Shown one piece after another: positions 32,384-53,042 of a stretch of DNA of 53,042 nt. The position numbers and the translations under genes are program-made. The notes under the pieces were generated by a model. That model was not told where the DNA came from and ran no database searches. It worked only from the letters and a program-made list of their open reading frames with translations. Every line of letters begins with the position of its first letter. The stretch's first letter is position 1. Source of the stretch: Agrococcus sp. KRD186 (lineage in GTDB: Bacteria > Actinomycetota > Actinomycetes > Actinomycetales > Microbacteriaceae); NCBI RefSeq assembly GCF_017168255.1, contig NZ_JABFAP010000001.1, forward strand, positions 13,739-66,780, read 5' to 3'.

Positions 32384-33730
32384 TCAACCAGCGGGATGGA
32401 CCATTGCGCGGATCGCCTCTAGGGGTACAGAAACCCAGGTAGGCCGATTGCTCAATTCATAGACGACCTCGTAGAGGGCCTTGTCGAGCATTAGCGCGCT
32501 GAAGACTGGGTCCTGCTCATCGACGGGACCCAGCGCATCCGCATAGCCCGACAGGAACTCGGCGCGGCGCTGGGCCACCCAGTCGCCGGCTGCCGCGGGG
32601 TCGCCGCCGGGGTTCTCCTGCAGGGCAGAGCCCGCCGCGTAGTCGAACGAACGCAGCATGCCGACGATGTCGCGCTGGCGGGGCTCGCGCACCATGCGCT
32701 CGTGGAGGGGCCGGAGTGGCTCGCCCTCGAAGTCGATCAGCGCCCAGCTGCCGTCGGTCGCGCGCAGCACTTGGCCGAGGTGGAGATCTCCGTGGATCTG
32801 CTGCAACTGGCCGAGCGCATGGATCTCCCGGAGACGCTCCGCCGCTGCGGAGAGGTCGCCCTCGAGCTCCGAGAGCACACTCGCGCCCTGCTCGCGTGCC
32901 CACGCGAGCCGCTGCTCGAGGCCGGTGATGAAGCGCAGGGTGTCGGCGTCGGTCGCGTCGGCCGTGCCCAGTGCATCCGCCAGATCTTTGTGCACGGTCG
33001 CGACCGCTGCGCCGAGCGCCGATGCATCGGGTAGGTCGCGCTGCTCGCCGCGCAGGGTGGCGAGTGCGTGCTGACGGAAGAGCTCCCAGCCGTCCTCGCC
33101 GCCGGAGACGAAGGACGAGACCGCCAGCAGGTGCCCGCTGACAAACGCGTCGCCTGCCGGCCAGGTGGCCGTCATCGCCGCCAGCAAGTTCGGCACCGGC
33201 TTGCAGCCGGCGCGTGTCAGTGCACCGGTGACGACGACGTCCGGGTTGTCGCCGGGGGAGACGACGCGGAAGACCTTCGCAATCCACGGGTGCTCGCCGC
33301 CGCCGATGATGGAGGTGTTCGACTGCTCGCCGGAGATCACACGTATCTCGCCCGCAGGCTCCGGCGGACTCGTCGCTTCGCCGCTGAGGCCGTCGACCGC
33401 ACGGTTGCCGGAGGCGACGTCGATGAGTGCCTGCACCGCATCCGCATCGTGACACGCGTCGACGAGCCAGCGGCCGTCGAGTTGTGCGATGGCCGCAGTG
33501 CCCGGTTCGTCGCGCCAGGCGACCGGCACCTGCAGCAGGGTGTCGCCCGCGCGCAGGAGCAGGATGGCCGCTTCGCCGAGATCGTAGGCGCGCTCGAGCG
33601 TGACATCGACCACCTGGCCCTTCAGCGGGTACCAACGGGTGGTGGGCATCCAGGCGGCGATCGCGTCGATGACTTGCTGGTCGCCGAAGTCGGGAGCGTC
33701 GGTCGGGGTGGTTGCGCTCATGGGGGCCAT
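32384..33730 (-). CDS. mak: Maltokinase (Mak/Pep2-type)
   Basis: 448 residues. The N-terminal cap begins VIDAIAAWMPTTRWYPLKG. The kinase-like fold follows with IIGGGEHPWIAKVFRVVSPG, the catalytic loop LQQIHGDLHLGQVLRATDGS near 305 and the metal site WALIDFEGEPLRPLHERMV. Mak phosphorylates maltose to maltose-1-phosphate for the GlgE alpha-glucan pathway in actinobacteria. ATG 33730 is chosen over in-frame upstream codons because the latter lie in non-coding sequence; ATG 33721 is possible. Its first 165 codons and about 30 bp of leader are duplicated at 36112-36640, beyond an accessory gene. Confidence 0.9.
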   Translation of the reverse strand: MAPMSATTPTDAPDFGDQQVIDAIAAWMPTTRWYPLKGQVVDVTLERAYDLGEAAILLLRAGDTLLQVPVAWRDEPGTAAIAQLDGRWLVDACHDADAVQALIDVASGNRAVDGLSGEATSPPEPAGEIRVISGEQSNTSIIGGGEHPWIAKVFRVVSPGDNPDVVVTGALTRAGCKPVPNLLAAMTATWPAGDAFVSGHLLAVSSFVSGGEDGWELFRQHALATLRGEQRDLPDASALGAAVATVHKDLADALGTADATDADTLRFITGLEQRLAWAREQGASVLSELEGDLSAAAERLREIHALGQLQQIHGDLHLGQVLRATDGSWALIDFEGEPLRPLHERMVREPRQRDIVGMLRSFDYAAGSALQENPGGDPAAAGDWVAQRRAEFLSGYADALGPVDEQDPVFSALMLDKALYEVVYELSNRPTWVSVPLEAIRAMVHPAG

Positions 33731-33884
33731 GATGCCGCCCGCAGGTGAGTACTGGCTATGGGCGGTGTCACCGCCTTCGGTTCCAACAAGTTGCTCTACC
33801 CCGGAGGTACTGAGGGTGAGAGCCGAGCGAAATCCTAGATGGATGGTGCAGGTACCACACGCTCGTGCAGCCACGGAGACCTTC

Positions 33885-34085
33885 CTGACTCACGCGACCG
33901 TCCCTTTTGCGAACCGGGAAGACTCACGCGCGTGCAGCTCATCGGCGACCACGGCTGGCCCGTGGAGCGGTTCGCTGACCGGTTGCAATGCGGCTGCGGC
34001 ACCTTCCGCCGTTGGGCAGCGCGGTATCGGGCGCGAGTCGATGACGGATCGACCCTCCGGCCGCTACGGTCACGGAATGCGATCC
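33885..34085 (+). pseudogene. IS481-type transposase N-terminal remnant
   Basis: Frames together read THATVPFANRE then LIGDHGWPVERFADRL, TFRRWAARYRARVDDGSTLR. This follows the helix-turn-helix start of IS481 transposases (THANA.LT, GWPV..AAE, T..RW..RYR). There is at least one frameshift and no DDE core. The remainder of the 33731-34184 gap shows no other gene. The remnant sits between maltokinase and the PP-loop gene. Confidence 0.55.
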
Positions 34086-34184
34086 CGGCGGCATCGTCGG
34101 ACTGCAGCGCCGGCACGCGACTCGTGTGCCGATCGTCTCCAGTAGTATCTGTACGACATACATCAATGAGGAGAGGGCGACATC

Positions 34185-35714
34185 GTGCAGGTCGAGCGCT
34201 TGGAAAGCATGCCGCTACTGGCTTGGGTGGCGCACGTAAGACCCGATCGCTCCATCGAGACGTACGTAGGCGAGTGGGTCGAAGCCAAGGACAATGCCGT
34301 CTTCGAGGGTGCATGGAACGGCGCCCTCGAAGACGCAAGTTTCGATGCGTCCTATTCATTTATGGGTTCGGGTATCATTGAGCATGAGTGGGGTGGCCTC
34401 GCCGTAACGCCGTGCCACACCACAGAAATCTTGTACTCCGTCACGACGCCTTCTCACGGAACGCACGTTTCGAACTCCATCGCGCTGCTCCTGAAAGCAT
34501 GCGGAGCAGAGTTGGACATTAACTATCTTGACTATGAACGGGATGCTCTGAGCATCTCGCACGGCCTGCGGACGCTGGCCAAGAGCATCCCGCTCGCGGA
34601 CAACCGCAAGTTGAATTTGCATGCCTATTGTAATGTGCGAATCGGGTACGACGGATCAATCAGCGAGTCTCCGAAACCAAACCCGCCGGTACCTACTGAC
34701 TTCGCAGAGTACAAGTCATTTCTGCTCACCGAGGTTGGGGGAATCCTCGCAAACGCTGCTCGCGTCTCGCGGCGTGCCTCCTACTCGCCGATCGTGTTCT
34801 GTTCAAATGGCTACGATTCCACGCTTTGCGCAACAATCGGGCGCGAACTCGGATGCGAGGAGGCAGTCGCATACGAGTCAAAACGCGCGGGTCGCTCTGA
34901 CTCGGGTTCCCCGGTTGCACGCGCGCTCGGCTACCCAGTGATTTACGAGAAGGATGAGTTGGAGTACCTGGACTACCCGGTGGCGCATCTGTTTACCGCG
35001 AATGGTGAACTCGGCACGTCGATCTTTTTCGCATCCGCCCAGCCGCTACTCAAGGGGAAGGCTCTGTTGAGTGGCGTCCACGGCGATAAGATGTGGGACC
35101 GCCACTATGTAGAACAAGGCGGGCCGATTGTCCGCTCCTTCGTCCCTGACATGGCCAGGACCGAGTTTCGGCTCGCAGCGGGCTACGTGAATATCCCACC
35201 GGCGTTCCTCACCGCAACCGTCCAGCCTGCAATAAATGCATTATCGAACGCGCCGGAGATGGCCTCTTGGACCCTGGGCAACGATTACGATCGCCCGCTC
35301 CCGCGGCGCATCGTGGAGGAAGCTGGCGTGCCCCGCGAACTGTTCGGACTCGCGAAGCCAGGCGGTGCGGCGAGTAGCTTGCGCTTCGGAAACAAGTGGC
35401 GTGTGAAAAGAGTCATGCCGCGCGGCAGTTGGGACCGATTCGAGCGATATCTGACGACAGCCAAGAGGACTCGGCGACGCACGCTTCAATGGCACTTCCG
35501 AAGCGCGGTATATCTGGCCTTCCTGGCTGCGACTGTTTCGTCTCAACGGGTACCCTTCGTCCGCCCAATTCTTCGTCCTCACCGATGGCCGACCAAACTT
35601 ACATGTAGTCCATTCGCGCCGTCGTTCCTCTTCCCGTGGGCGATATCTGAGTTGCAGGAACACGCCTACCAGGACGTTCCGCGAACAGTGTCCGGTGCGA
35701 ATGTCGCGCCTTAG
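34185..35714 (+). CDS. PP-loop ATPase, asparagine-synthase-like
   Basis: 509 residues from GTG 34185 with GAGGAGAGG 8 nt upstream. The central SPIVFCSNGYDSTLCATIG, near residue 205, is a PP-loop (S.G.DS) for adenylation as in asparagine synthase and related ATP pyrophosphatases. It is followed by VAYESKRAGRSDSGSPVARA. The first 190 residues, with GGLAVTPCHTTEILYSVTT, could be a degenerate N-terminal domain; there is no N-terminal cysteine for glutamine hydrolysis. GC content is clearly lower than in the neighbours, a sign of transfer. It lies alone between two copies of the maltokinase 5' region. Activation of a carboxylate followed by amide formation is a reasonable guess; substrate unknown. 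Confidence 0.8.
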   Translation: MQVERLESMPLLAWVAHVRPDRSIETYVGEWVEAKDNAVFEGAWNGALEDASFDASYSFMGSGIIEHEWGGLAVTPCHTTEILYSVTTPSHGTHVSNSIALLLKACGAELDINYLDYERDALSISHGLRTLAKSIPLADNRKLNLHAYCNVRIGYDGSISESPKPNPPVPTDFAEYKSFLLTEVGGILANAARVSRRASYSPIVFCSNGYDSTLCATIGRELGCEEAVAYESKRAGRSDSGSPVARALGYPVIYEKDELEYLDYPVAHLFTANGELGTSIFFASAQPLLKGKALLSGVHGDKMWDRHYVEQGGPIVRSFVPDMARTEFRLAAGYVNIPPAFLTATVQPAINALSNAPEMASWTLGNDYDRPLPRRIVEEAGVPRELFGLAKPGGAASSLRFGNKWRVKRVMPRGSWDRFERYLTTAKRTRRRTLQWHFRSAVYLAFLAATVSSQRVPFVRPILRPHRWPTKLTCSPFAPSFLFPWAISELQEHAYQDVPRTVSGANVAP

Positions 35715-35914
35715 CCTGACTTAGTTCCTCGAATGGAGGTTGCTACCGCGCTGACAGTCGCATCGGCAAGCGAGCGGTGAGTGCCCTGCAGAACTTGCGA
35801 CGCGTGGTTTTGCCTCGAGCCTTGTCGGCTTGATGCAAGGCAGATGTTGCAGCAACCCGCCATGCTCGGTCGTGACAATCAGGACGCAATGGTGAGCCAA
35901 CGCATGCGCTCGCC

Positions 35915-36608
35915 TTACGGGCGATTCGCGGTGTGCAGCTGCATGCCGTGCACCTTGGACTCCAGCTGAGAGATGGGCGCGATGAGGCCCTGGGTCGAGC
36001 AGTTGCCGGTGAGCGGCGAGTGCAACCCGGAGACGACGCCGACAGCAATCGCGCCCTCGGTGGTCGGCTTGCTGACGACCCGACCCCCCGAGTCGCCGAA
36101 GCAGCCGGTGACGACGACATCGGGGTCGTCGCCGGGGGAGACGACGCGAAAGACCTTCGCGATCCACGGGTGCTCGCCACCGCCGATGATCGACGTGTTC
36201 GATGCCGCCCGAGACGACGCGGATGTCGCCCGCGAGCTCCGGCGTGCTTGTCGCCTCGCCGCTGAGGCCCTCGACCGCGCGGTTGCCTGACGCGACGTCG
36301 ATGAGCGCCTGCACCGCATCCGCATCGTGACACGCATCGATCAGCCAGCGGAGGTCGAGCTGCGCGATGCCTGCCGCACCCGGCTCGTCGCGCCAGGCAA
36401 CCGGCACCTGCAGCAAGGTGTCGCCCGCACGCAGCAGCAGGATGGCCGCGTCGCCCAGGTCGTAGGAGCGCTCGAGCGTGACGTCGACCACCAGGCCCTT
36501 CAACGGGTACCAGCGAGTGGTTGGCATCCAGGCGGCGATCGCGTCGATGACCTGCGGGTCGCCGAAGTCGGGAGCGTCAGTCGGGGTGGTTGCGCTCATG
36601 GGGGCCAT
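35915..36608 (-). pseudogene. Chimera of maltokinase 5' copy and S1-protease 3' copy
   Basis: From 36608 the sequence copies the first 165 or so codons of mak (VIDAIAAWMPTTRWYPLKG and on). Near 36205 one base is lost and the frame shifts. In the new frame IIGGGEHPWIAKVFRVVSPG continues to DPDVVVTG, then at about 36112 passes without a break into CFGDSGGRVVSKPTTEGAIA and on to HTANRP and TAA. That tail is the active-site serine region and C-terminus of the protease at 40467. So mak and protease fragments were joined in frame. The product has no complete domain. The 200 bp before the next gene hold nothing else recognisable. Confidence 0.85.
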
Positions 36609-36640
36609 GATGCCGCGTGCAGGTGAGTGCTGGCTATGGG

Positions 36641-37639
36641 CTACGGGACGTAGTCGGTGCCGTTGGCGTCGACGTAGGGTGCGATGTCGCCCGCGCGCAG
36701 CGCTTCGCCGAGCGCTGCGGTCTGCGCCTGATCGACGACGTTGACCGACTGCCCGCCCTGATTGCCGAAGCCTGTGATCGGCGCCATCAGGCTCACGACG
36801 TCGTCGCGTTCGAGGTTCTGGCTCAGCGCTGTGAGCGCGATCATGTCGTCGATCGAGAGATCGCCGGTGATCTTCGTGCGGCTCGCGATATGGGTGAAGA
36901 GCTCGAGCAGCGCGCCGGCATCGCCGCTCGAGGCGATCTCATCCATGCGCTCAAGCATGCCGGCCACGGCCGCCCGCTGGCGCTCAGCTCGGTCGAGGTC
37001 GCCGGCAGGCAGCCCCTTGCGCTGCCGCACGTAGATGAGCCCGTCGGTAGCAGCAAGGTGCACGGGGTCAGCGGTGAAGTCGACGACGCGGCCGGTGCTG
37101 ATCACCGTGACCTGCGTGGGGTACTGGTTCTCGGCGTCGAACCCGTCGAGCGCACGCGTCATGCCGATGTAGCCCTCGAAGTCGGTCTGCACCACGTAGT
37201 CGATCTCGAGGCCGCCGAACATGTGGGAGACGGTGTCGCGCATCACCGAGGTGCCGCCGCGTGCGAACGCGGAGTTGATCTTGCCCGAACCCCAGCCCGG
37301 GATCTCCACCCACGAATCGCGGGTGATGGAGACGAGCGTGAGCGACTCCCTGTCTGCAGAGATCTGCGCGAGCATGATCGCGTCTGCATTGCCCGTCATG
37401 CTGCCGGGCGTGCGTGAGTCGGTGCCGAGGAGCAGGGCCGTGACCGCGCCGTCGGGCAAGGGGTCGACGGGGCCGGTGGGCGTCGGCGTCGGCGTCGACG
37501 TGGCGACGGGGGACGGTGCTGCGGCCGTTGGCGTCGGCGTCGCACTCAGTGTCGGTTCTTGGGGACCGCAGCCGGTGATCGCGAGTGCGACTACCAAAGA
37601 GATGGCGATCAGATTGGCGCGCGTGCGGCGTCGTGGCAT
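36641..37639 (-). CDS. LytR-CpsA-Psr (LCP) family lipoprotein
   Basis: 332 residues. An Arg-rich start and hydrophobic stretch lead to the lipobox LAITGCGP (Cys near 24), so it is probably a lipoprotein, unlike most LCP proteins, which have a transmembrane anchor. A Thr/Pro-rich linker follows. The LCP domain shows LLLGTDSRTPGSMTGNADAI, LVSITRDSWVEIPGWGSGKI with NSAFARGG, and IYVRQRKGLPAGDLDRAERQ with RAAVAGM. LCP enzymes attach undecaprenyl-linked polymers to peptidoglycan on the outer face of the membrane. It could fix the polysaccharide made upstream to the wall. Its 3' end adjoins the duplicated maltokinase leader. Confidence 0.9.
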   Translation of the reverse strand: MPRRRTRANLIAISLVVALAITGCGPQEPTLSATPTPTAAAPSPVATSTPTPTPTGPVDPLPDGAVTALLLGTDSRTPGSMTGNADAIMLAQISADRESLTLVSITRDSWVEIPGWGSGKINSAFARGGTSVMRDTVSHMFGGLEIDYVVQTDFEGYIGMTRALDGFDAENQYPTQVTVISTGRVVDFTADPVHLAATDGLIYVRQRKGLPAGDLDRAERQRAAVAGMLERMDEIASSGDAGALLELFTHIASRTKITGDLSIDDMIALTALSQNLERDDVVSLMAPITGFGNQGGQSVNVVDQAQTAALGEALRAGDIAPYVDANGTDYVP

Positions 37640-37733
37640 GTGATGAGCTCTCGGGTCGGCGTGCTTGCGCTCAAACGTATCTGATGTCGCTGAATCGACG
37701 GTGGTCTGGAGCCGCGTCTGGAGTGCGTGCTGG

Positions 37734-38246
37734 CTATGGGCGGTTCGCGGTGTGCAGCTGCAGGCCGTGCACCGTGGACAGCAGCTGCGAGACGGGAGCG
37801 ATGAGCCCCTCCTGCGAGCAGCGCACGCTGATCTTCGACTTTATGCCCGAGACGACGCCGACAGCGATGGCGCCCTGGGAGCTCGGCAGGCTGACGATCG
37901 GGCCGCCGGAGTCGCCGAGGCAGAACGCGCTCGCGCCGCTCGAGCGCACGATCTGCACGTGCATGCATTCGCTGCCGCGGCTGGTGCCGTAGCAGGTGAC
38001 GTAGGCCTCGCCGGCGGTCAGGTCGCACTTCCAGCCGGTGACCTGGCCGGAGGAGCAGAGGCGGTAGCCCGACGGCGGCCAGGTGGTCTGCGTGCCGACG
38101 ATGGTGACCGTCGAGGTCTCGCCCGTGTAGATGCGGGGGAGGGTGCGCGCGTCGTAGGAGGCGGCGATGACGCCCAGGTCGTACGGGCGGGCGCCGTCGT
38201 TCAGCTCGCGCACCAGATCGCTCGTGCCGATGCGGGTGCCGTTGGC
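37734..38246 (-). pseudogene. S1-family serine protease, 3' partial copy
   Basis: About 170 codons nearly identical to the C-terminal part of the full protease at 40467-41780. They include the Asp region ARPYDLGVIAASYDARTLP, WPPSGYRLCSSGQVTGWKCD and the serine site FCLGDSGGPIVSLPSSQGAI, ending HTANRP. Similarity stops abruptly at about 38246 with the codons for RIGT; the signal peptide, prodomain and catalytic His are missing. It lies just beyond the AAA/TOPRIM gene, so that gene is flanked by two copies of the protease 3' half. Confidence 0.9.
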
Positions 38247-38258
38247 CTGGAGCGACTC

Positions 38259-40166
38259 CTACTCCTGCGACTCGGGGGCAATGCTGTCCCGAATGGGCAC
38301 CTCGCCGGTGAGGATGTAGCCTGCGACCTTGCCAAGTAAGGTCCGAGTGTCAGCCTTAAATTCGTCCTTGATGGCCTTCCCGTCTTCGGTTAGCAGGCCC
38401 TTAACTGATCTCGAACTGAACGCTGGTTTGTCACGAATGTCCGGCGCCGGAATCTCAGCGACGAAGACATCGTAATGCGCATCGCGGATCTTGTTTGCGA
38501 TGTCAGGTACGTTATTGTCGAGAACTACCGCTACGCGACGGAATCCGAGTTCCTTCAGGAGATTCGTGATCTTCAGAACGTTGCCCGAGCCGCCGGAACC
38601 CCAACCAAAAACTGTGCCGGCCGGCTGCACCCCGGATAGTTCGAATGCGGAGGGCAGAAGGGCGGCGTCCTCTTGCCCCTCAACGACGATGATGCCGTCG
38701 TCAAGAAACAACGCCTCGTTGGCGTCAACTCCCAACGTGTGCGGATTACGCCATCCACCACGAGACGCTGGAATTTGGTCGATCGTTGTGCGGGTAGCTT
38801 GCGCAAGCTTCGAGTCTGTCCCGTCCTTGAAGACTCGCGCGATCGCTGCGCCGGACTGGATGTCGGCCCATGACACTAGTTGGGGAGAATGAGTGAAGAC
38901 GACGATCTGGCGGGTAGCCGCAAATCTCGCGAACACCTCGCGGAGACGTCGTACAAGTTGTGGGTGGAGCGAGAGTTCGGGTTCATCGAAGACTAGGAGC
39001 GTGCCACTCTCCGAGTCGTAAAGTGCATTGAGTATGTACAGGAGACTGATGATCCCGTCACCCAGTCCCTCGCTCGTGTGTTGGACTCCTTCGCCGGTTG
39101 TGACTTTCAGATAGTAGGACTGGCCCTGCTGACCCTCGCCTAGTTCGATCGCCCATTCCAGGCGATGCCCGAGCACTTCCGCCATGAGCTCATCGAACTT
39201 TGCCTTCTTCTGTTCGTTGTTGTGAAGGTCGAAGAGGCGACCAGTGAACTGGTCGTGTTGCCGAAACCTGGTGAAGTCCGAACCATCGTGCATCCAGTCG
39301 CGTTGCGCGCCTCCTCCCCTGCCAAAGCTGGCCTGAAACTGCCGACGGGAGGGCACCGTAATGATCTCGAGCGCCGTTGGGTGCTCTTCCGTCGACCAAC
39401 TGCCCTTCGTTTCGCTAGTCTCCGCATGGCGACTCTGCACGCAGTAGCGCGAGCCGTCCGCCCGGGATAACTCGATTCGTATCCCGCCGGACGTGGCCCG
39501 GTTTCGACGGCCCTCAGAGAACGAGACGTCAGATTTCAGTTTGCGAGCTATGGCGTCGAAAGACTCCCAAACCGTCGATTTCCCAGTGTTGTTCGCTCCG
39601 ACAACGAATGTCAGCCCGCTACCGTCTTCTCCGTTTGGCTGCGCGAGTTTCAAGAGGGCTGGCTCACGGAATCCTCTGAACCCTTCGACGGAGATGCTCT
39701 CTAACCAGACCTGTTGCTCTGTCGCCATGGCTGTGCGATTTCCTTCCCGCTCTGAACGCAGACGCTGTCGGATGTCCCAGCGATTCAGCCGGGGCACTCG
39801 TCGACGCATAGAGAGTAGGCCTGCGGTCATAGGCTGGGCAGAGTCGTGGACGTAGGCAGCGAGTGCACGGGCAGCCGTGCCAACGGCCATGATCGGCGCC
39901 AACCCGGCAGCACGGTCTTCGTGCGTCCAAACAACCCAAACCTCGCCAGGTGCGGGTTGGCCGTTGACTCGCTCCCACACCATCCGGATGACTCCGGGTT
40001 GGTTGGGCCCGATCTCGATGCAATGTGCATGCTCGAGCGGCGCGTGCCGCGCGGATTCAAGGCGTGTATCGCGGACGAAGACATCAATGCTGTTAGAGGG
40101 GCCCAGGCGCAAGCTCCCGACGCCGGCGGCACCAAAGGCCTTAAGGGTGTCGTCCACGGTCGCCAT
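38259..40166 (-). CDS. AAA ATPase with TOPRIM (OLD-family-like nuclease) and N-terminal extension
   Basis: From ATG 40166 the frame encodes 635 residues; ATG 39728 would give 489. The OLD-like part starts LESISVEGFRGFREPALLKL and has Walker A FVVGANNTGKSTVWESFDAI, signature SEGLGDGIISLLYILNAL, Walker B LLVFDEPELSLHPQL and IVVFTHSPQLVSW. A TOPRIM domain follows with DGIIVVEGQEDAALLPSAFE and VAVVLDNNVPD. The first 146 residues are well coded (high GC3) and include GEVWVVWTHEDRAAGLAPIM; I do not recognise them. Stand-alone OLD proteins act in phage defence (class 2 OLD, Gabija GajA). No helicase partner is adjacent. Confidence 0.85.
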   Translation of the reverse strand: MATVDDTLKAFGAAGVGSLRLGPSNSIDVFVRDTRLESARHAPLEHAHCIEIGPNQPGVIRMVWERVNGQPAPGEVWVVWTHEDRAAGLAPIMAVGTAARALAAYVHDSAQPMTAGLLSMRRRVPRLNRWDIRQRLRSEREGNRTAMATEQQVWLESISVEGFRGFREPALLKLAQPNGEDGSGLTFVVGANNTGKSTVWESFDAIARKLKSDVSFSEGRRNRATSGGIRIELSRADGSRYCVQSRHAETSETKGSWSTEEHPTALEIITVPSRRQFQASFGRGGGAQRDWMHDGSDFTRFRQHDQFTGRLFDLHNNEQKKAKFDELMAEVLGHRLEWAIELGEGQQGQSYYLKVTTGEGVQHTSEGLGDGIISLLYILNALYDSESGTLLVFDEPELSLHPQLVRRLREVFARFAATRQIVVFTHSPQLVSWADIQSGAAIARVFKDGTDSKLAQATRTTIDQIPASRGGWRNPHTLGVDANEALFLDDGIIVVEGQEDAALLPSAFELSGVQPAGTVFGWGSGGSGNVLKITNLLKELGFRRVAVVLDNNVPDIANKIRDAHYDVFVAEIPAPDIRDKPAFSSRSVKGLLTEDGKAIKDEFKADTRTLLGKVAGYILTGEVPIRDSIAPESQE

Positions 40167-45611: not shown

Positions 45612-45980
45612 TCAACCGGCGCCGGCTCCTTCGCGCCCACCGGGTTGACGACCTTCGCGCCCTCGACCGGGGTGGTGCGTGCCGGCATCCGCTTCATGAT
45701 GCGACGGATGTTGAGCCAGGCGATGAGGCCGGCGATGGCGAGGATGACGAGCGCCGGCATCGCCTGACCCAGGCCGAACAGGAAGGTGGCGCCCCAGGCG
45801 AGGAAGCCCTGCCAGCCGTTCACCAGGCCGTCGAGGAAGCTGGGCGTGCCGGTCGGGCCCTCGACGGTCGTCGAGCGGATCTGCACCTCGAGCGTCGACA
45901 TCGCCACCAGCTCCTCGAGCGAGCGCTGCTGCGAGAGCAGGCTCTCGAGCTCGCTGGTGCGCTGCGTCAGCTGCGCCTCG
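45612..45980 (-). pseudogene. DUF4349 gene, 3' partial copy 2
   Basis: Almost identical to the last 120 codons of the full gene at 47527: SQQRSLEELVAMSTLEVQIR, then TPSFLDGLVNGWQGFLAWGA and the tail VVNPVGAKEPAPVE. Similarity stops at about 45980, where the unrelated plus-strand gene 45988 begins. It lies between hipBA and the unknown three-gene operon. Confidence 0.9.
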
Positions 45981-45987
45981 ATAGCGC

Positions 45988-46398: not shown

Positions 46399-46781
46399 CC
46401 AGCGTTCACCTGCACACTCGACCCCGCGTCGAGGTTGACCCAAACCGGCACAGTCGTCGTCGGCCCGGTTTGCTCCCCGTGCCCTTGGAGCACACGCCGT
46501 TCGGCCTCACTCCAAACCAGCGTGTCACCGCGGTGCAATCTGATGATCGCGGCCCCGACTTCGTGGGAGTCGCACGAGTAGCCGAAATCGATGCGGCTCG
46601 TGGGCTTGTGTACTTGGATGTTGACTGGCAGTCGTTCCAAGAGGACGCGTTTCAGGTGTCGGAAGCTTCGGGGCTGAAACACATCAACTTTGTTGCATCA
46701 GGAAAGACGTTGCGCCTGATCGGCCGGGCATCGACCAGCGGTTCTGAGCGCAGTCTTTCCCATACACGGATCGCAGGATGA
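46395..46781 (+). CDS. Hypothetical protein, second gene of unknown three-gene operon
   Basis: 128 residues. A basic proline-rich N-terminus (RPRVEVDPNRHSRRRPGLLP) is followed by a probable small beta domain TPFGLTPNQRVTAVQSDDRG and ARVAEIDAARGLVYLDVDWQ. No membrane segment or catalytic motif is visible. Overlaps by 4 nt with both neighbours. Confidence 0.7.
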   Translation: MTSVHLHTRPRVEVDPNRHSRRRPGLLPVPLEHTPFGLTPNQRVTAVQSDDRGPDFVGVARVAEIDAARGLVYLDVDWQSFQEDAFQVSEASGLKHINFVASGKTLRLIGRASTSGSERSLSHTRIAG

Positions 46782-47191
46782 GACTTCTCGCTTCGTTCGT
46801 CTGTGATGCCGCAAGCATTCGCGAGAATCTCGGGCAAATTCTCGGCGCAGGTGTGAGTCGTATCAGGCCCGAGACGTACCCGGTGCCCATCGGTGTCGAC
46901 TTCTTCGCGCTGCTCGAGGTCTCGGGCATCGGCACTCAGTCGGCCACCGAGATCAGCATTGCGCTGCGTCAAGCCGCTACCCAAGTCCCAGTGAGCGAGA
47001 TCAGCGCCACTCTCGACTTTCCGGAGATTCAGCGAACCGGAGCCGAGACCCTGAACGTGCCGATGGTCTTTCCAACGCGATACATGATTGTGTCGGAACC
47101 CGGAGAGTACGAGTTCGTCCTCACTATTCCAGGCGTAGATCTCGTCGCAGTGCCGCTCACTATGCGGCCTGGCTCAGCGCACGAGGAGTAG
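46778..47191 (+). CDS. Hypothetical protein (DUF6941-like), third gene of unknown operon
   Basis: 137 residues. LLASFVCDAASIRENLGQIL then GAGVSRIRPETYPVPIGVDF and, at the end, EYEFVLTIPGVDLVAVPLTM. The order (opening strand, GK.ILGAG-type turn, P..P, then a beta-sandwich-like tail) reminds me of the DUF6941 group, small proteins often found beside phage-defence or toxin genes. This is a resemblance by eye only. ATG overlaps the preceding stop by 4 nt. Confidence 0.65.
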   Translation: MRLLASFVCDAASIRENLGQILGAGVSRIRPETYPVPIGVDFFALLEVSGIGTQSATEISIALRQAATQVPVSEISATLDFPEIQRTGAETLNVPMVFPTRYMIVSEPGEYEFVLTIPGVDLVAVPLTMRPGSAHEE

Positions 47192-47220
47192 TCGACGCTC
47201 GCGAACGGTTCTGCATCCCG

Positions 47221-47445
47221 TCAGACTTTGACTAGCCCGCGCTGCTTCGCCCACGGCCCGGGGTTCCGCAGCTGGTAGGCATTTTCGGCCGCTCGGCGGT
47301 GGCTGATTCGCGTGATTCCGCGGTTCTTGGCGTCGACGAGCGGCAGATTCTGTAGGCACACGACTGTCGGAGTGTCGGACTGGGAACTGAGGCCGATACG
47401 CCGGTCCGAGCCGACCCTGTAGTAACACGACCCCCACACGCCCAA
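47221..47445 (-). CDS. Possible small hypothetical protein or gene remnant
   Basis: 74 codons containing TPTVVCLQNLPLVDAKNRGI and ISHRRAAENAYQLRNPGPWA, ending LVKV. The composition looks protein-like but the start (TTG) has no ribosome site and no family is recognised. It may be the tail of a deleted gene. It lies in the 335-bp gap between the unknown operon and the DUF4349 gene, where I see nothing else. Confidence 0.3.
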   Translation of the reverse strand: MGVWGSCYYRVGSDRRIGLSSQSDTPTVVCLQNLPLVDAKNRGITRISHRRAAENAYQLRNPGPWAKQRGLVKV

Positions 47446-47526
47446 CCGTCAACTTCCGCGCCACCGCGCGGAATCCCGGGCAACGTGTGCTCACCAGTTG
47501 CGGAACTCCGGACGGCGTGGAGCAAT

Positions 47527-48504
47527 CTATTCGACCGGCGCCGGCTCCTTCGCGCCCACCGGGTTGACGACCTTCGCGCCCTCGACCGGGGTGGTGCGTG
47601 CCGGCATCCGCTTCATGATGCGACGGATGATGAGCCAGGCGATGAGGCCGGCGAGGGCGACGATGACGAGCGTCGGCATCGCCTGACCCAGGCCGAACAG
47701 GAAGGTGGCGCCCCAGGCGAGGAAGCCCTGCCAGCCGTTCACCAGGCCGTCGAGGAAGCTGGGCGTGCCGGTCGGGCCCTCGACGGTCGTCGAGCGGATC
47801 TGCACCTCGAGCGTCGACATCGCCACCAGCTCCTCGAGCGAGCGCTGCTGCGAGAGCAGGCTCTCGAGCTCGCTGGTGCGCTGCGTCAGCTGCGCCTCGA
47901 CCTCGAGCAGCGTCTCGGTGTCGGCCGCGGTCGTCAGCAGCTCGGTGAGGCGCTCGACGGATGCCCGTGAGGCGTTCACTCGCACCTCGAGATCGCGCAC
48001 CTGGTTGGTGACGACCTCTTCGCCCAGGTCGAGCGTGGCGACCTCGCCGAGGCCGCGCAGCGCGTCGAGCATGCCGGGCACCTCGGTGGCCGGCACCCGC
48101 ACGGTGAGGATGGCCCAGGCGGGCTCGAAGTCGGTCGAGGCGCCTTCGGCCCGGCGGTCGATCGTGCCGCCACGTGCCACCGCGGCGTCAGAGACCGCAT
48201 CCGCCACCTGGAGGGGATCGCCGGCGCGCATCGAGACGCTGCCGGTGACGATGACCGCGCGATCCTCGTCGACTGCGGCCTCGGGCTGGCCGCCGCCGGA
48301 GGCGCTCATATCGGAGCCGTCGCCGGCGGCGCCCATGTCGCCGCCGCTCTCTTCCTGCGGCATCTCGACGACGGGCCAGTCGGGCGCGGACTGAAAGCCG
48401 GGTTCAGCGGCGGGGGAGACGGACGTGCCCGCAGCGGAGCAGCCGGCGAGGAGGACGGTGCCGGCGATGACGATGCCGGCCATCGAGAGGAGTCTGCGGG
48501 TCAT
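47527..48504 (-). CDS. DUF4349-domain lipoprotein, full copy
   Basis: 325 residues. The signal MTRRLLSMAGIVIAGTVLLA ends in the lipobox LLAGC, so it is lipidated and exported. A flexible Gly/Ser-rich segment leads to the DUF4349 domain: RAVIVTGSVSMRAGDPLQVA, ILTVRVPATEVPGMLDALRG, and a coiled coil around QTQRTSELESLLSQQ-like residues near 215-235. A C-terminal transmembrane helix (TLVIVALAGLIAWLIIRRIM) is followed by a basic tail. Function unknown; it may sense or brace the envelope. Its 3' third is duplicated at 45612-45980 and 43544-43820. Confidence 0.9.
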   Translation of the reverse strand: MTRRLLSMAGIVIAGTVLLAGCSAAGTSVSPAAEPGFQSAPDWPVVEMPQEESGGDMGAAGDGSDMSASGGGQPEAAVDEDRAVIVTGSVSMRAGDPLQVADAVSDAAVARGGTIDRRAEGASTDFEPAWAILTVRVPATEVPGMLDALRGLGEVATLDLGEEVVTNQVRDLEVRVNASRASVERLTELLTTAADTETLLEVEAQLTQRTSELESLLSQQRSLEELVAMSTLEVQIRSTTVEGPTGTPSFLDGLVNGWQGFLAWGATFLFGLGQAMPTLVIVALAGLIAWLIIRRIMKRMPARTTPVEGAKVVNPVGAKEPAPVE

Positions 48505-48640
48505 GCTTCCAGCGTGCGCGCAAACTTTCTGAAGCACAGCCCAACCTTTGCGATGACTTGGGCGTCAGCGGTGTTTGGACTGTCCCGTTGTGTGGGCGCG
48601 TCTCTCCCGCGCGTCGGTGGATGCTGGTATATTTCCTGGT

Positions 48641-49252
48641 ATGAATTCCGAAGGACATCCGGACAGCGAGCGCGTGTTGGCCGACTTGGGCGACGGCTTT
48701 GTCCACTCGTTCATCGAGGCTGTCGACGGTGCGCGCGAAGACTTCGTCGCACTGAGGGATTGGCAACCGGGATGGTTTCCGAGCTTCACGGGCCGATTCA
48801 CAGCCAACTTCCTCCACGAGCGGATCTGGGATCGGCTCATCCGGGCCGTCCATGGCATGGAGGGGATTCACATCGTCGATCGCGAACCCGTGCGCGAGGT
48901 CCGCAGCGGCACCAGATACCTCATCCGGATCAAGCGTCATCACCCGGGCGACCGCATCTCGGCGTATCCCACGGAGGGCTCGAGCGCCTTTTGGTCGAAC
49001 AGTCTGCTGACGCTCGACGGCTTGGAGTCGTTCGGACTCGCAGTGGGTTACTTCTGGGACGCCGCCCTGCACGCCGTCGGAGACCCGATCCTGTCCTTTC
49101 GCGACGGCAAGGACAACCCGATCTGGGCGATCCGACTTCGTCGCGACGCAGGCAACGCCACTGGCTTCTCCTGGTCGCCTGTCGAGCCCGATCTCCCGGA
49201 GCTCGACCTCAGCGGTGTCATGGATGAGGCAGCGGACGAGACTGGCTCATGA
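48641..49252 (+). CDS. Hypothetical protein coupled to ImmA/IrrE protease
   Basis: 203 residues from ATG 48641. It starts MNSEGHPDSERVLADLGDGF and includes REDFVALRDWQPGWFPSFTG, RIWDRLIRAVHGMEGIHIVD and RTRYLIRIKRHHPGDRISAY-like basic strands, later LGLAVGYFWDAALHAVGDP. There is no signal peptide or membrane helix. The stop overlaps the ATG of the HTH-ImmA/IrrE gene (ATGA). Such pairs can be toxin-antitoxin or stress-switch modules in which the peptidase cleaves a regulator. I cannot name the family. Confidence 0.75.
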   Translation: MNSEGHPDSERVLADLGDGFVHSFIEAVDGAREDFVALRDWQPGWFPSFTGRFTANFLHERIWDRLIRAVHGMEGIHIVDREPVREVRSGTRYLIRIKRHHPGDRISAYPTEGSSAFWSNSLLTLDGLESFGLAVGYFWDAALHAVGDPILSFRDGKDNPIWAIRLRRDAGNATGFSWSPVEPDLPELDLSGVMDEAADETGS

Positions 49253-50292
49253 CGGGCAGTGTCGGCGATGTGATCCTGGTGCTTCGACGGGCCGCGGACA
49301 TCACACAGGTGGAGCTCGCCAGTCGACTGGGCATCACCCAAGCCGCGCTTTCGAGATACGAGAACGATCTGCGCGAACCCGACGACCAGGTCGTGGAACG
49401 CCTTGGCGATGCACTCGGAGTGACCACCGAGTTTCTCCGCCACGAGTTTCGGATGCAGGGGGCCATCGCCGCAGACGCGCATATGCGACGGCAGAAGACG
49501 ACCAAGCCCTCGGACTGGAAGCGCGTCGAGGCGCGGCTGAATGCATTTCGAATGCATTCGACGTACCTATTGGATCGTGTGCCGCTGCGGCCGCAGAACC
49601 GCGTGCTGCGGCTCGACCCCGACGAGCACACCCCATCGGAGGTTGCAGGGTTCGTGCGCGCCGCGTGGAGGATGCCGGTCGGCCCCGTGCGGAAGCTCAC
49701 CCGCTGGACCGAGTCTGCAGGCATCATCGTCATTGAAGAAGACTTTGGGACCCATCGAATCGACGGAATGTCGCAGTGGGCAGGCGACCACGCGGTCATC
49801 ATCTTGAATGCGATGTTGCCGACGGATCGCAAGCGACTGACAATCGCGCATGAGCTCGGGCACCTCGTGCTGCACGGCGACTATGTCGACGGCGACATGG
49901 AGGAGCAAGCCAACCTGTTCGCGGCCGAATTCCTGATGCCGGAGCATGTCATCGCGCCCCAGTTGATGAATCTCACGCTTGGGAAGCTGTCGGACCTCAA
50001 ATCTGAATGGGGTGTCTCGATGCAGGCGATCTTCGAGCGTGCCTATCGACTGGGAAAGGCATCTGGCGAGGAGCGCCAGCGGTTCTATCGGCAGATGAAC
50101 GCCCGGGGGTGGAAGACCCGCGAACCCGGCAGCGACCTGCTGGCGCCCGAGCATGCTGAACTGGCTGCCACGGTTGGCCGGCGTCTGGGAGAGACGGGAC
50201 TGACAAGAGCGGAGATCTTGCGGCTGGTCGGAGCACGCGATGGCTACGCGACGCCGTTCCTGCCGCCGGCGCAGATCCTCCGAGCGGTGTGA
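49249..50292 (+). CDS. XRE-type HTH protein with ImmA/IrrE metallopeptidase domain
   Basis: 347 residues. The N-terminal HTH is ADITQVELASRLGITQAALS then RYENDLREPDDQVVERLGDA. The peptidase domain has the zinc motif KRLTIAHELGHLVLHGDYVD (HELGH near residue 200) and the third ligand region EEQANLFAAEFLMPEHVIAP. A C-terminal region of about 90 residues follows with ERAYRLGKASGEERQRFYRQ. Members cleave or bind repressors and act as switches in mobile elements, radiation response or toxin-antitoxin pairs. It is coupled to the gene upstream. Confidence 0.93.
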   Translation: MTGSVGDVILVLRRAADITQVELASRLGITQAALSRYENDLREPDDQVVERLGDALGVTTEFLRHEFRMQGAIAADAHMRRQKTTKPSDWKRVEARLNAFRMHSTYLLDRVPLRPQNRVLRLDPDEHTPSEVAGFVRAAWRMPVGPVRKLTRWTESAGIIVIEEDFGTHRIDGMSQWAGDHAVIILNAMLPTDRKRLTIAHELGHLVLHGDYVDGDMEEQANLFAAEFLMPEHVIAPQLMNLTLGKLSDLKSEWGVSMQAIFERAYRLGKASGEERQRFYRQMNARGWKTREPGSDLLAPEHAELAATVGRRLGETGLTRAEILRLVGARDGYATPFLPPAQILRAV

Positions 50293-50299
50293 TCGCCGG

Positions 50300-50530
50300 C
50301 GCTCGTGAACGCTTCGCCGCTCGCGCACCTGCTTGTCGCTGGTGATCGCGGTCGGCAGCCGGTCGAGGTCGTCGGCCGCGTTATCGGTGCCCTTGAGCCA
50401 GCGCTCGATGCTGCCAAGGAGACGGCTGAGGCCGAACCCGAAGCCGGTGTCGCGGTCGGTGACGGCCGGCTCGAACACGCCCGCCCGCACCGCCGGCCAG
50501 CAGTGGGAACCGCTCTCGGTGACGAGCTAG
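50300..50530 (-). pseudogene. TetR gene, internal partial copy
   Basis: About 220 bp match, at roughly 85-90% by eye, the part of the TetR-family gene at 52262-52490: AVTDRDTGFGFGLS-coding sequence, the ERWL segment and ATNTIS-like region up to SDKQVRE. There is a small deletion and several substitutions, and no start or stop. It is in the same orientation as the full gene. It marks the left edge of the block 50531-52088. Confidence 0.8.
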
Positions 50531-50585
50531 AGCGTGGGCGTGGCACTGGTCGCCCAGTGGCCGGTAGCCGAGTACCGTAGTACCT

Positions 50586-50870
50586 ATGGCTGCCGCGACA
50601 TTGAACCCCGTGAAGGTCGACGCCGAGGCCGACCGCCTCGCAACCGATGCTGCTCACTTCCTCGGGCGGACGAAGAAGGATCTCGTCAGCGTCGCAATTC
50701 GTGAATACGTCGAGAAGCATCGTAACGAGATACACGAGGCTATTCAGGAGTCGATGCGACGACTCGACGGATCCAATCGCGCCGCCGTTCGCATGCTGAC
50801 AGGATTCAGCGACGAGGAGCTCGACGATCTCGGTGGGGTACCGGAGGATGAGGCAAGCGGGCCTCGGTGA
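50586..50870 (+). CDS. Ribbon-helix-helix-like small protein (antitoxin-type)
   Basis: 94 residues. LNPVKVDAEADRLATDAAHF then LGRTKKDLVSVAIREYVEKH is the pattern of a ribbon-helix-helix DNA-binding domain (short strand, two helices). The acidic tail FSDEELDDLGGVPEDEASGP is typical of an antitoxin that wraps its toxin. No RelE/ParE/PIN-type toxin gene follows, so it may be an orphan, or the partner could be the small membrane protein at 51051. Confidence 0.7.
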   Translation: MAAATLNPVKVDAEADRLATDAAHFLGRTKKDLVSVAIREYVEKHRNEIHEAIQESMRRLDGSNRAAVRMLTGFSDEELDDLGGVPEDEASGPR

Positions 50871-51050
50871 CGGGCGAGGCGGTGCGGCCGACTCGGCCAG
50901 CGATGCAATAGTCCGGTGCTTTTGGTTTCGCCGCCGGTAGGCGCAGAACGCGCTGTGCCGCAGTCGACTCGTTGCAACCTCAGAGTTGGTTGTCCACAGG
51001 ATGCGCCGAGCGGCGCGCGCCCCTACTCGACGATTGCGTACGTTGCGCGC

Positions 51051-51605
51051 ATGCAGAGCAGGCAACGTGCGCGAAAGGCCGTTGTCGCGCTTGTCGCGAC
51101 GACGGCGCTCGCCGCGCTCCTTGCCGGGCTCGTGCTCGGGCTGCTCGTGCCGCCGATCGTCGATGACGCTGCGTTCCGGCGCGACTTCTTCACTTCGTCC
51201 GGCTTCGCCGGGCTCGCCGCGGTCGTCGCTGCGATCGTCGCGTATGCGGCGACTCGGCAATCGGTCAGGTCATCGTCAGCCCATGCTCGGGCTGATCGTG
51301 AACTCGCGGAACGTCGCGATCGAAAGGCGCAGTGGTGGGCGCGAGCGGAGTGGGCTCTCAACCAGATCACGACCGGTGACGCGGGCGCTGCTGTGATCGG
51401 ACTCGGAGTGCTCGATGCTCTCGGCGCCAGCGAGTGGGCAAACGAGCACGAGGTGGAGATTGTCGCCGTTGCACTCGACTACGCGCTTGACGTGGGAGCG
51501 TCGCCAGCCGAGACCACCAATGTCAGCGGATGCGACACATCTGACGACGGCTGGACTTCCGGCGTCGACGCAGGGACAATGCCAGCAGGAGACGACGATG
51601 CGTGA
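51051..51605 (+). CDS. Hypothetical membrane protein
   Basis: 184 residues from ATG 51051. Two hydrophobic segments, AVVALVATTALAALLAGLVL (about 9-33) and GFAGLAAVVAAIVAYAATRQ (about 50-70), precede a cytoplasmic helical domain with SVRSSSAHARADRELAERRD and AQWWARAEWALNQITTGDAG, ending in an acidic tail. No family is recognised. The frame is open upstream to 50916, but that part lacks coding character. It overlaps the next small gene by 8 nt. Confidence 0.7.
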   Translation: MQSRQRARKAVVALVATTALAALLAGLVLGLLVPPIVDDAAFRRDFFTSSGFAGLAAVVAAIVAYAATRQSVRSSSAHARADRELAERRDRKAQWWARAEWALNQITTGDAGAAVIGLGVLDALGASEWANEHEVEIVAVALDYALDVGASPAETTNVSGCDTSDDGWTSGVDAGTMPAGDDDA

Positions 51606-51795
51606 TCACCAGCAGGACCCTGCCGCCACCGTGCGACCGTCCGTGCCCGAGCCCATGTACCGGTCGCGGCTGACCGGACGGCCCGTCACGAGAGCAGAGC
51701 GGATCGCCGCCGCTCGCGCGCGAGTCACGATCGATCCGAAGCGGGGCGTCGAGACGCCGCAATGGATCGTTGAACTGGCGAAGCAGAGCGCCTGA
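51598..51795 (+). CDS. Small protein, tandem paralogue 1
   Basis: 65 residues with GCAGGAGAC 4 nt upstream. The conserved part reads MYRSRLTGRPVTRAERIAAA then RVTIDPKRGVETPQWIVELA and KQSA. The gene at 51842 encodes a close relative, so this is a tandem duplication. It is basic and proline-containing, with no membrane helix or motif I recognise. It may be a small regulator or a partner of the membrane protein with which it overlaps. Confidence 0.7.
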   Translation: MRDHQQDPAATVRPSVPEPMYRSRLTGRPVTRAERIAAARARVTIDPKRGVETPQWIVELAKQSA

Positions 51796-51841
51796 GCTAC
51801 TTCAATATCGGGCGCGAACGGCAGAATGCAAGCAGGAGGCG

Positions 51842-52036
51842 ATGATGGCTGAGCAGCAGCAGACTGCGGAGCAGACGACGGCGGAGGCGCCTGAACTGTA
51901 TCGCTCGCGCACGACCGGCCGCATCATCACTCGGGCGGAGCGCATTTTGGCCGCGCGGGTTCGGGTGACGTACGACCCGAAGCGTGGTGTCGACACCCCT
52001 GCATGGATTCGAGAGCTCGCGAAGCAGCCGCTCTGA
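51842..52036 (+). CDS. Small protein, tandem paralogue 2
   Basis: 64 residues (or 63 from the next ATG). Preceded by GCAGGAGGCG. The core LYRSRTTGRIITRAERILAA then RVTYDPKRGVDTPAWIREL matches the preceding gene at most positions, while the Gln/Thr-rich N-terminus differs. The shared segment must be the functional part. It is the last gene before the convergent TetR gene. Confidence 0.72.
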   Translation: MMAEQQQTAEQTTAEAPELYRSRTTGRIITRAERILAARVRVTYDPKRGVDTPAWIRELAKQPL

Positions 52037-52088
52037 CACGCCGCCGCACGGCGACAGAGGCACCAGACGTCGCGGCGTGGGTGGACAC

Positions 52089-53042
52089 CTACTTGCGGGC
52101 CTTCGCCTCTGCCTTCGCGGCCTTCAGGGCTGCCCTCGCGGCCTCGCGCTCGGCGGCGGCCTCGGCCTTGGATTCTGCGGCCCGAAGGCGCTCTGCGACC
52201 TTGGCCACCGCATCCGCTGCCTTCGACTCCGCCTGGCGCAGCTCGATGCGCGCCTTCTCGACGAGCTTCGCCGCCTCGCGCACCTGCTTGTCACTGGTGA
52301 TCGCGGTCGGCAGCCGGTCGATGTCGTCGGCCACGTTGTCGGTGCGCTCGAGCCAGCGCTCGATGCCGTCGAAGATGCGGCTGAGGCCGAAGCCGAAGCC
52401 GGTGTCGCGGTCGGTGACGGCCGGCTCGAACACGCCCGCCCGCACCGCCGGCGCCAGCAGCGGGAACCGCTCGTCGGTGACGAGCTCCGGCAGCGCCCTG
52501 CGCACCGCGTCGTCGACCGCCGCGTTGCTCGACGCCTTCGCGTACAGCGCGATGTAGCCGAGCAGCAACAGCAGCGTCGCCACTTTGCCGTCGTCGGGCA
52601 TCCGCACGCCCTCGAACGCTGTCAGCCCCGCCTCGATGATCGCCAGCCGGTTCGGCGTCGTCGGCGTCGAGCTCGGCGGCAGATCGGCCAGCCACGGGTG
52701 CGCGTCGTAGGCGGCCCGCACGAACATCGCCCACTCGCGCAGCCCCTTGCGCCAGCTCTCGGCTGCGCCCGGCACCGTGATCTCGCTCGCCGTGTCGTAC
52801 ATGAGCAGCAGCAGGTCGTCCTTGCCGGTGACGTAGCGGTAGAGGCTCATCGGGGCGACGCCGACCGCCGCCGCCACCTTGCCCATGCTGACCGCCTCGA
52901 GCCCGTGCTCGTCGGCCAGGGCGATCGCCGCTTCGACGATGCGCTCGGTCGTCAGCTCGCGCTTGGGTCCGCGGTGCGGCAGCGCGGCGACGCCCCACGT
53001 CACGGCGTGCGCGTGCGGCAGGTCGGGGGTCTCGGGCTGGGC
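52089..53042 (-). CDS. TetR-family transcriptional regulator (start probably outside window)
   Basis: At least 304 residues; a GTG at 53003 is possible but the frame remains open to the window edge with a protein-like AQPETPDLPHAHA, so the start may lie outside. The DNA-binding part is RGPKRELTTERIVEAAIALA then ADEHGLEAVSMGKVAAAVGV and PMSLYRYVTGKDDLLLLMYD. A TetR_C_11-like ligand-binding domain follows. The last 70 residues form a long Ala/Lys/Glu coiled coil (REAAKLVEKARIELRQAESK), unusual for TetR. An internal part is duplicated at 50300-50530. Confidence 0.9.
   Translation of the reverse strand, partial: AQPETPDLPHAHAVTWGVAALPHRGPKRELTTERIVEAAIALADEHGLEAVSMGKVAAAVGVAPMSLYRYVTGKDDLLLLMYDTASEITVPGAAESWRKGLREWAMFVRAAYDAHPWLADLPPSSTPTTPNRLAIIEAGLTAFEGVRMPDDGKVATLLLLLGYIALYAKASSNAAVDDAVRRALPELVTDERFPLLAPAVRAGVFEPAVTDRDTGFGFGLSRIFDGIERWLERTDNVADDIDRLPTAITSDKQVREAAKLVEKARIELRQAESKAADAVAKVAERLRAAESKAEAAAEREAARAALKAAKAEAKARK

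Follow-up and report, generated by a model that had tools for sequence, protein, structure and literature searches.

Core genes, cargo and partial core-gene copies alternate in a block of the Agrococcus sp. KRD186 genome, a layout suggesting stacked import of chromosomal fragments

A 20.7-kb block of the Agrococcus sp. KRD186 genome was examined, in which four core genes of the genus, tetR, DUF4349, a trypsin-like protease gene and mak (maltokinase), are interspersed with accessory genes (cargo) and with partial copies of the same core genes. Coordinates are positions in the window, the whole stretch of 53,042 nt that was analysed; the block covers 32384-53042. This genome is referred to as G000, and its relatives, the other Agrococcus genomes, are labelled G001 onwards. 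The core order tetR-DUF4349-protease-mak, conserved in relatives, is here interrupted by 8 cargo segments, and the block holds 6 partial copies, counting the adjoining fragments mak1 and prot2 separately and the fragment fr2 of DUF4349 as one. The layout, consisting of a full gene, a cargo and a partial copy, is real and far above chance. We consider it probable (about 0.7) that chromosomal fragments from related strains were imported, each through one homologous exchange and one non-homologous joint, and that they stacked upon one another.

The interrupted core block and its repeat pairs

The full copies are open frames, assigned to the Pfam families Mak_N_cap, Trypsin, DUF4349 and TetR. An earlier sequence-only reading of this DNA had described full and partial copies of all four genes in direct orientation, and every pair was recovered by self-blastn: mak at 33225-33763 and 36105-36641 (88.9%), the protease at 37736-38243 and 40469-40976 (95.7% over 508 bp), DUF4349 at 45609-45981 and 47528-47900 (98.4%), with extra pieces at 43541-43690 and 43678-43814, and tetR at 50311-50528 and 52265-52486 (91.9%). 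The same reading placed the PP-loop gene between the two mak copies, which holds, having overlooked prot2, a second 3' fragment of the protease gene (189 bp, 35916-36104, 78%). Prot2 is fused to the partial mak copy, mak1, at 36104/36105, and the PP-loop cargo is thus bracketed by prot2 plus mak1 on one side and by mak on the other. The LCP gene (36641-37639) and the EcsC-like gene (42216-43522) are further cargo between core genes.

Repeat pairs were counted when direct blastn matches of at least 80 bp and at least 88% identity lay at least 300 bp apart, the pairs within the three-way DUF4349 similarity being counted singly. By this criterion the block contains 8 pairs. The same criterion returned 2 pairs across 40 stretches of 20 kb taken at even spacing from this genome, none in 20 stretches of G006 and none in 20 stretches of the sister genome G011 outside the block (19 evenly spaced and one, of 15 kb, picked for its P450 gene), in a scan which detects only brackets fitting inside one 20-kb stretch. 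Lower-identity pairs (75-82%) were found in a few stretches of all three genomes. Of the 2 control pairs, one is located in the end of a transposase-like gene and the other is the P450 case described below. In stretch L068, a transposase-like gene end and an identical 127-bp copy (2036-2162 and 11205-11331) bracket about 9 kb, including an RmrA-like gene; the transposase-like label reflects the look of the gene, and part of that stretch reads N. An assembly artefact produced by a mixture of strains is unlikely, given the divergence between the copies and the occurrence of the layout in a second genome, G011; the block lies on a 3.05-Mb contig.

Read along the minus strand, the order is tetR, the RHH-like, 229-aa and 88-aa genes, tetR', the M78/RmrA-like pair, DUF4349, three open reading frames (ORFs), fr1, the HipA pair, fr2, the EcsC-like gene, protease, the OLD-like ATPase, prot1, LCP, mak1/prot2, the PP-loop gene and mak. 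The parts are given below in order of coordinates, with the ratio of non-synonymous to synonymous differences (pN/pS) for some of the fragments.

32384-33763, minus strand: core mak, full copy with leader; Pfam Mak_N_cap; 92% amino acid identity to G011.
33764-35912, segment without strand: cargo, PP-loop-like gene at 34185-35714 (plus strand); GC 0.60; family name from the sequence-only reading.
35913-36104, minus strand: prot2, protease 3' end fragment abutting mak1; 78% versus its own protease, 87.3% versus the G011 protease.
36105-36641, minus strand: mak1, partial mak, 5' part; 88.9% versus full mak; pN/pS 0.14.
36642-37733, minus strand: cargo, LytR-CpsA-Psr (LCP) gene at 36641-37639; Pfam LytR_cpsA_psr; a relative lies downstream of mak in G006.
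37734-38243, minus strand: prot1, protease 3' end fragment; 95.7% versus the full copy; pN/pS 0.31, p=0.004.
38244-40466, minus strand: cargo, OLD-like AAA ATPase at 38259-40310; GC 0.60; Pfam AAA_21/AAA_15; best PADLOC match Old.
40467-41843, minus strand: core trypsin-like protease, full copy; Pfam Trypsin; kinship to G011 shifts along the gene.
41844-42194, minus strand: 81-aa ORF and ancestral DUF4349-protease spacer; aligns in G011 to 42194 and in G019 to 42155.
42195-43536, plus strand: cargo, EcsC-like gene in two frames, 42216-42662 and 42584-43522; taken from the ORF list, the name being a guess.
43537-43814, minus strand: fr2, DUF4349 fragment, internally deleted and decayed; pN/pS of its pieces 1.46 and 3.70.
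43815-45607, minus strand: cargo, HipA toxin-like kinase at 43863-45371 and HipB-like HTH at 45254-45478; Pfam HipA_C, Couple_hipA; HTH judged by eye from the translation.
45608-45981, minus strand: fr1, DUF4349 fragment, 3' end; 98.4% versus the full copy.
45982-47526, plus strand: cargo, three ORFs at 45988-47191, the last DUF6941; Pfam DUF6941.
47527-48537, minus strand: core DUF4349, full copy; Pfam DUF4349; 92% amino acid identity to G011.
48572-50310, plus strand: cargo, unknown gene at 48575-49252, HTH and M78 protease (RmrA-like) at 49249-50292; Pfam HTH_3, Peptidase_M78; PADLOC RmrA 5.6e-53.
50311-50528, minus strand: tetR', C-terminal part of tetR without the 3' end; 91.9% versus the full copy.
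50529-52088, plus strand: cargo, RHH-like antitoxin at 50586-50870, 229-aa ORF at 50916-51605, 88-aa ORF at 51770-52036; Pfam PSK_trans_fac.
52089-53003, minus strand: core tetR, full copy; Pfam TetR_N, TetR_C_1; 93.7% nucleotide identity to G011.

The GC content is 0.70-0.72 in core genes and 0.60-0.68 in cargo. Four cargos are defence- or toxin-antitoxin-like (the OLD-like ATPase, M78/RmrA-like, HipA and the RHH-like antitoxin); neither kind is recognised in the PP-loop gene, LCP or the three-ORF segment, and the other scanned cargo ORFs have no clear defence match. The PP-loop-like protein (509 aa) had no match in Pfam, PADLOC, NCBIfam or PDB, nor did its gene in the 23 congeners searched; in the same 23, no match to the OLD-like ATPase was found at E<=1e-20. 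Only weak relatives (30-34% identity) of the M78/RmrA-like protein were detected: G015 and G012 have one apiece, and a third lies at another place in its own genome. The EcsC-like gene, which had no Pfam match above cut-off, spans two overlapping frames, as a broken gene or a sequencing error would. The 229-aa ORF may encode a membrane protein, as labelled in the sequence-only reading. Within the RHH cargo, near the 88-aa ORF, 51577-51785 and 51824-52026 share a direct similarity of 67%. Outside the block, an inverted repeat (1-214 and 12832-13045; 90% over 214 bp, 12.6 kb apart) may represent the ends, or copies, of an insertion element.

A plasmid or phage origin of the cargo was considered and discarded: no near DNA match for 32384-53042 was found among 72,556 plasmid and 50,697 phage records, and the protease, compared as protein, had two weak plasmid matches (28-29% identity). 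The borders had been described as lacking integrases and tRNAs. No integrase was found among the block ORFs scanned against Pfam and no tRNA in the window, and the borders match no recombinase gene found.

Relatives and further loci

Agrococcus is a soil genus and is not known as a pathogen. The protease is encoded by five named Agrococcus loci, 56-79% identical; among 23 congeners it has one match in 19 and two in none, the match in G016 being weak (27% identity). DUF4349 has, at the protein level, one match in 20 of the 23 and two in none. For mak, one full match is present in 19 of 23, with a weak match only in G013; beyond these, G017 has a partial second copy, and the second matches of G012 and G021 are weak and probably unrelated. 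The expectation that relatives would carry single uncut copies was thus borne out, apart from an 82-bp DUF4349 end in G011 and the mak piece in G017.

The order tetR-DUF4349-protease-mak is found in the relative loci fetched (18 in all), except L028, which is cut at its contig start, and L027, L031 and L039, which do not show all four genes. Gaps between core genes in relatives are mostly below about 730 bp, G001 being compact. In the sister genome G011 protease and mak are directly adjacent, and therefore the site taken here by the LCP, ATPase and PP-loop cargo is empty there. Other DNA occupies the same gaps in G004 and G019 (2.2 kb) and in G015 and G017 (about 1 kb), and 5 kb in G014 and 12 kb in G007 separate DUF4349 from mak, neither genome having a protease match. 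In the corresponding loci, mak and DUF4349 are separated by ugd and a long ORF of tandem repeats (L051, G014) and by other genes over about 12 kb (L052, G007). The block is best read as an insertion hotspot of Agrococcus.

The same layout was observed at other loci. In G011, 28.8 kb separate DUF4349 from an 82-bp copy of its 3' end (90%), which precedes the protease. This island is catabolic, made up of transporters, metabolic enzymes and regulators, and contains no integrase, transposase or relaxase (both statements from a scan of 22 of its 27 picked ORFs). With such an island, and with LCP and PP-loop genes not recognised as defence genes, the term 'defence island' proposed earlier is too narrow. 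KRD186 itself has a further case at C1:2529984-2533576, where nucleotidyltransferase cargo (NTP_transf_8 above cut-off, AbiEii below cut-off) lies between a P450 gene and a 327-bp copy of the P450 3' end (95%). Seven other congeners carry this P450 gene, with one match each at E<=1e-60, a cut-off which would miss copies much shorter than 327 bp; in G011 the site is occupied by another 1.2 kb. A Fic-domain gene lies directly behind the displaced P450 end (L077, 8563-9903), possibly as a second cargo layer. In G017, a 224-bp mak piece is located 6 kb beyond mak.

Divergence and descent of the copies

In an unconstrained decaying fragment about 3/4 of the changes are expected to alter the protein. 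Eleven comparisons of full and partial copies were made, with uncorrected p values, and five showed a significant excess of synonymous changes: mak1 (pN/pS 0.14, p=5e-13), prot1 (0.31, p=0.0037) and prot2 against G011 (0.29, p=0.0018), all three surviving correction for 11 tests, and P450' (0.28, p=0.011) and the mak' of G017 (0.32, p=0.015), both uncorrected. In these five of 11 comparisons the copies look as if they had diverged like alleles, rather than like a duplicate decaying in place. Judged by its substitution pattern, mak1 in particular argues strongly against a local duplicate.

The fragments nearest the full genes are the best preserved, fr1 being 98.4% identical without indels and prot1 95.7%, with the outer fr2 deleted and decayed and the outer prot2 at 78%; fr1 and fr2 share bases absent from the full DUF4349. 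In these two genes the fragment order suggests last-in-first-out stacking.

Descent was followed along the protease gene by using informative sites, at which G011 differs from the base common to at least 4 of 5 other congeners; in the count, the tetR alignment had no G011 row and DUF4349 was left out. In the full protease, 36 of the 45 informative sites within nt 1-450 are in the G011 state, and 12 of 78 beyond; prot1 has this state at 6 of 35, and prot2 at 12 of 18. The counts indicate that the alleles in the repeats and in the full gene differ in descent, and trees agree for the full copy and prot1: the full protease groups with G011 over nt 1-430 (support 1.0) and with prot1 in the 3' part (0.97). 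The full protease and G011 thus diverge in descent near nt 390-460, in one of the four block genes. The 3' part of the full protease and prot1 appear to share one descent, and prot2 to have another, close to G011. A G011-like protease nt ~430-1187 was not found; that it is the resident allele is deduced from G011 only. Neither mak nor DUF4349 or tetR proved informative as a marker of donor and resident alleles.

Two scenarios would both yield the observed fusion of mak1 and prot2. Were this genome the receiver of a foreign 3' part, prot2 would be the native end pushed outward, and the donor piece would have had its far end at the mak1/prot2 junction. With G011 as the receiver, prot2 would not be native; it would have arrived with a donor resembling G011, for instance in a protease-PP-loop-mak piece that had re-closed and then recombined into mak.

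Routes of import and known systems

From the core block, the empty protease/mak site of the sister genome, the allele-like divergence in five of 11 comparisons and the recurrence of the layout in G011 and at P450, we infer a step of one exchange plus one joint, an order of events and a route of entry. Fragments of the chromosomes of related strains would carry part of a resident gene together with the cargo adjoining it in the donor, and two events would fix them, a single homologous exchange within the resident gene and a single joint without homology. That gene would be kept whole, since the donor supplies the matching end, and a second, partial copy would be left on the far side of the cargo. 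Repeated import would build a last-in-first-out stack, in which the most recent cargo and fragment lie next to the full gene. Entry may have occurred by transformation or conjugation. ComEC and Ku genes are present in this genome, and among 14 control genomes ComEC matches were found in 10 and Ku in 1; their presence shows neither competence nor end joining here.

Several observations weigh against this interpretation. For the three cargos searched across the genus (PP-loop, OLD-like ATPase and M78/RmrA-like), no donor with the same cargo was found. Partial copies were not seen in the cargo-bearing gaps of G004, G019, G015 and G017, most cargo in relatives having none alongside, and the EcsC-like cargo lacks an adjoining one here. 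The mak case of G017 is weaker, because the bracketed stretch holds the resident galU. Six of the 11 comparisons were not significant, namely prot2 versus its own protease (0.64, p=0.098), tetR' (0.46, p=0.12), fr1 (0.47, p=0.27), the G011 copy (0.73, p=0.51) and the two fr2 pieces, whose values of 1.46 and 3.70 indicate decay. Values near 0.3 are by themselves compatible with a local duplicate, and are weaker evidence than the 0.14 of mak1 because the changes of the full gene are mostly synonymous anyway. The grouping of prot2 with G011 has a support of 0.495 only, and nine further congeners fall within the enclosing clade (0.998); the protease switch is defined against G011, so that either genome may be the receiver, and mak1 and the full mak are about equally G011-like. 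Finally, at 5 or 6 of the seven cargo/fragment joints examined an intact cargo gene ends within 58 bp, which is unexpected from random donor ends. The distances, taken from coordinates, are 15 bp for the ATPase, 48 for HipA, 57 for the RHH-like gene, 23 for the P450 cargo and 58 for the G011 island; at the three-ORF cargo the joint is 6 bp from the first ORF, itself possibly truncated there, and the junction of mak1 and prot2 is the exception. Of what was first proposed from the letters, the serial import of a resident-gene segment plus cargo by homology, with no integrase seen, is supported, the uncut G011 site, the mostly single copies of congeners and the five allele-like comparisons being in its favour, and the galU of G017 and the cargo without copies in most relatives partly against it.

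The proposal had been a Campbell-type one, in which the donor piece is closed into a circle and integrated by a single crossover within the repeated segment. This is a tenable possibility, short of even odds. Such a circle always leaves a partial copy, as found beside most cargos here, the direct partial duplications flank the inserts as those of Campbell-type integrants would, and the junction of mak1 and prot2 is that expected from a re-closed protease-PP-loop-mak piece; Ku is present. In E. coli conjugation, most of 60 recombinants from non-replicating DNA had partial duplications, arising by single crossover of re-closed DNA (PMC3240628). However, the sole clear change of descent, at protease nt 390-460, falls outside the repeats, which start at nt 870 and 1187, and the circle therefore needs a separate exchange. 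Circular or plasmid DNA carrying the same fragments and cargo did not appear at near identity in the plasmid and phage records, a weak test which is blind to a transient circle.

Homology-facilitated illegitimate recombination (HFIR) alone, in which linear DNA is joined by one homologous and one non-homologous end and the intervening resident stretch is deleted, is possible to much the same degree; the two are rated about even, since from the protease switch either genome could be the one that changed. If G000, and not G011, took up the foreign 3' part of the protease, one such event would explain the switch, the mak1/prot2 joint and the G011-like prot2. Non-homologous joints are present at 36104/36105 and between cargos and fragments, and the circle predicts them too. 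A mechanism akin to HFIR has been proposed for the orphan immunity gene arrays of Vibrio (PMC5361080). Against it, HFIR is rare and usually described with deletion and not duplication (PMC3240628), and the share of fragment-bearing cargos here is high.

The joints leave room for a more speculative reading, which we regard as improbable: cargo could move among Agrococcus strains as an integrase-free unit, formed by the 3' end of a core gene, serving as an 'address', and one to three genes. The unit would dock at the matching resident gene, keep it whole and displace the old end, and the direct repeat would offer a way for it to be lost or passed on once more. Such a unit would account for the position of most joints, no further than 58 bp from an intact cargo gene, and, on the reading of mak1 as a donor end, for the displaced pieces all being 3' portions (tetR' and the G017 mak piece stopping before the stop codon).

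Local tandem duplication, followed by decay and later insertion of cargo, would fit the decayed fr2 and the lack of departure from neutrality in fr1, tetR' and the G011 copy, and is made very unlikely by the synonymous excess in five of 11 comparisons, very strong for mak1, and by prot2 being nearer to the G011 protease than to its own. About as unlikely is the insertion of cargo at specific sites in the 3' ends of genes by trans-acting integrases, with the fragments as displaced att-side ends: the displaced protease, DUF4349 and P450 pieces do reach the 3' end of the gene and a 15-bp direct repeat flanks LCP, but the repeats measure 82-539 bp, with different starts, in five genes, and no integrase was found in the cargo ORFs scanned in two genomes and no tRNA in the loci scanned. 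The 15-bp repeat at the borders of the LCP cargo (36641-37734) covers the protease stop and mak leader, about where the PP-loop border on the mak side starts, and resembles a short-homology event or a target duplication.

Many accessory-gene hotspots lack integrases, and the entry of genes into them is usually inferred statistically. Scars such as those described here may let single events be read, with the anchor gene, the positions of exchange and joint and the order of arrival. Sequential end displacement is known from polymorphic toxin genes; the scars would extend it to ordinary core genes whose cargo is toxin-antitoxin, defence-like or catabolic, and the question of circular versus linear donor DNA becomes testable in Agrococcus.

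The layout may be compared with known systems. The sequence-only reading had spoken of an undescribed route, which in general it is not, the circle and HFIR being both on record (PMC5361080, PMC3240628). In open-access literature, covering titles, starts of abstracts and some passages, no report was found of this layout in Agrococcus, nor of defence cargo stacked behind displaced core-gene ends. The type VI orphan immunity arrays of Vibrio, explained by a mechanism akin to HFIR, are alike in their successive imports anchored in a homologous upstream part, which push older 3' parts downstream into a stack of remnants; there, however, the anchor is a toxin region and the cargo an effector-immunity module, whereas the Agrococcus anchors are ordinary core genes with unrelated cargo (PMC5361080). 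Displacement of Rhs C-terminal ends similarly leaves strings of displaced 3' ends behind a full gene, but in polymorphic toxin genes rather than housekeeping-type ones. Hotspots without integrases, linked to exchange at flanking core genes, share the presence of accessory genes at a fixed place between core genes; the double exchange proposed for them would leave no partial copies, whereas the Agrococcus scars point to an asymmetric event (PMC5635113). The E. coli recombinants, including 4 HFIR clones, likewise have a target gene partly duplicated around imported DNA, but derive from laboratory constructs and single events (PMC3240628). In the merodiploids formed by pneumococcal transformation a duplication is also made by imported DNA, but these need repeats common to donor and chromosome, and duplicate resident DNA without adding new cargo (PMC3784515). 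The class of mechanism is therefore known; what seems to be new is that it acts in a stacked fashion at ordinary core genes and brings in cargo unrelated to them.

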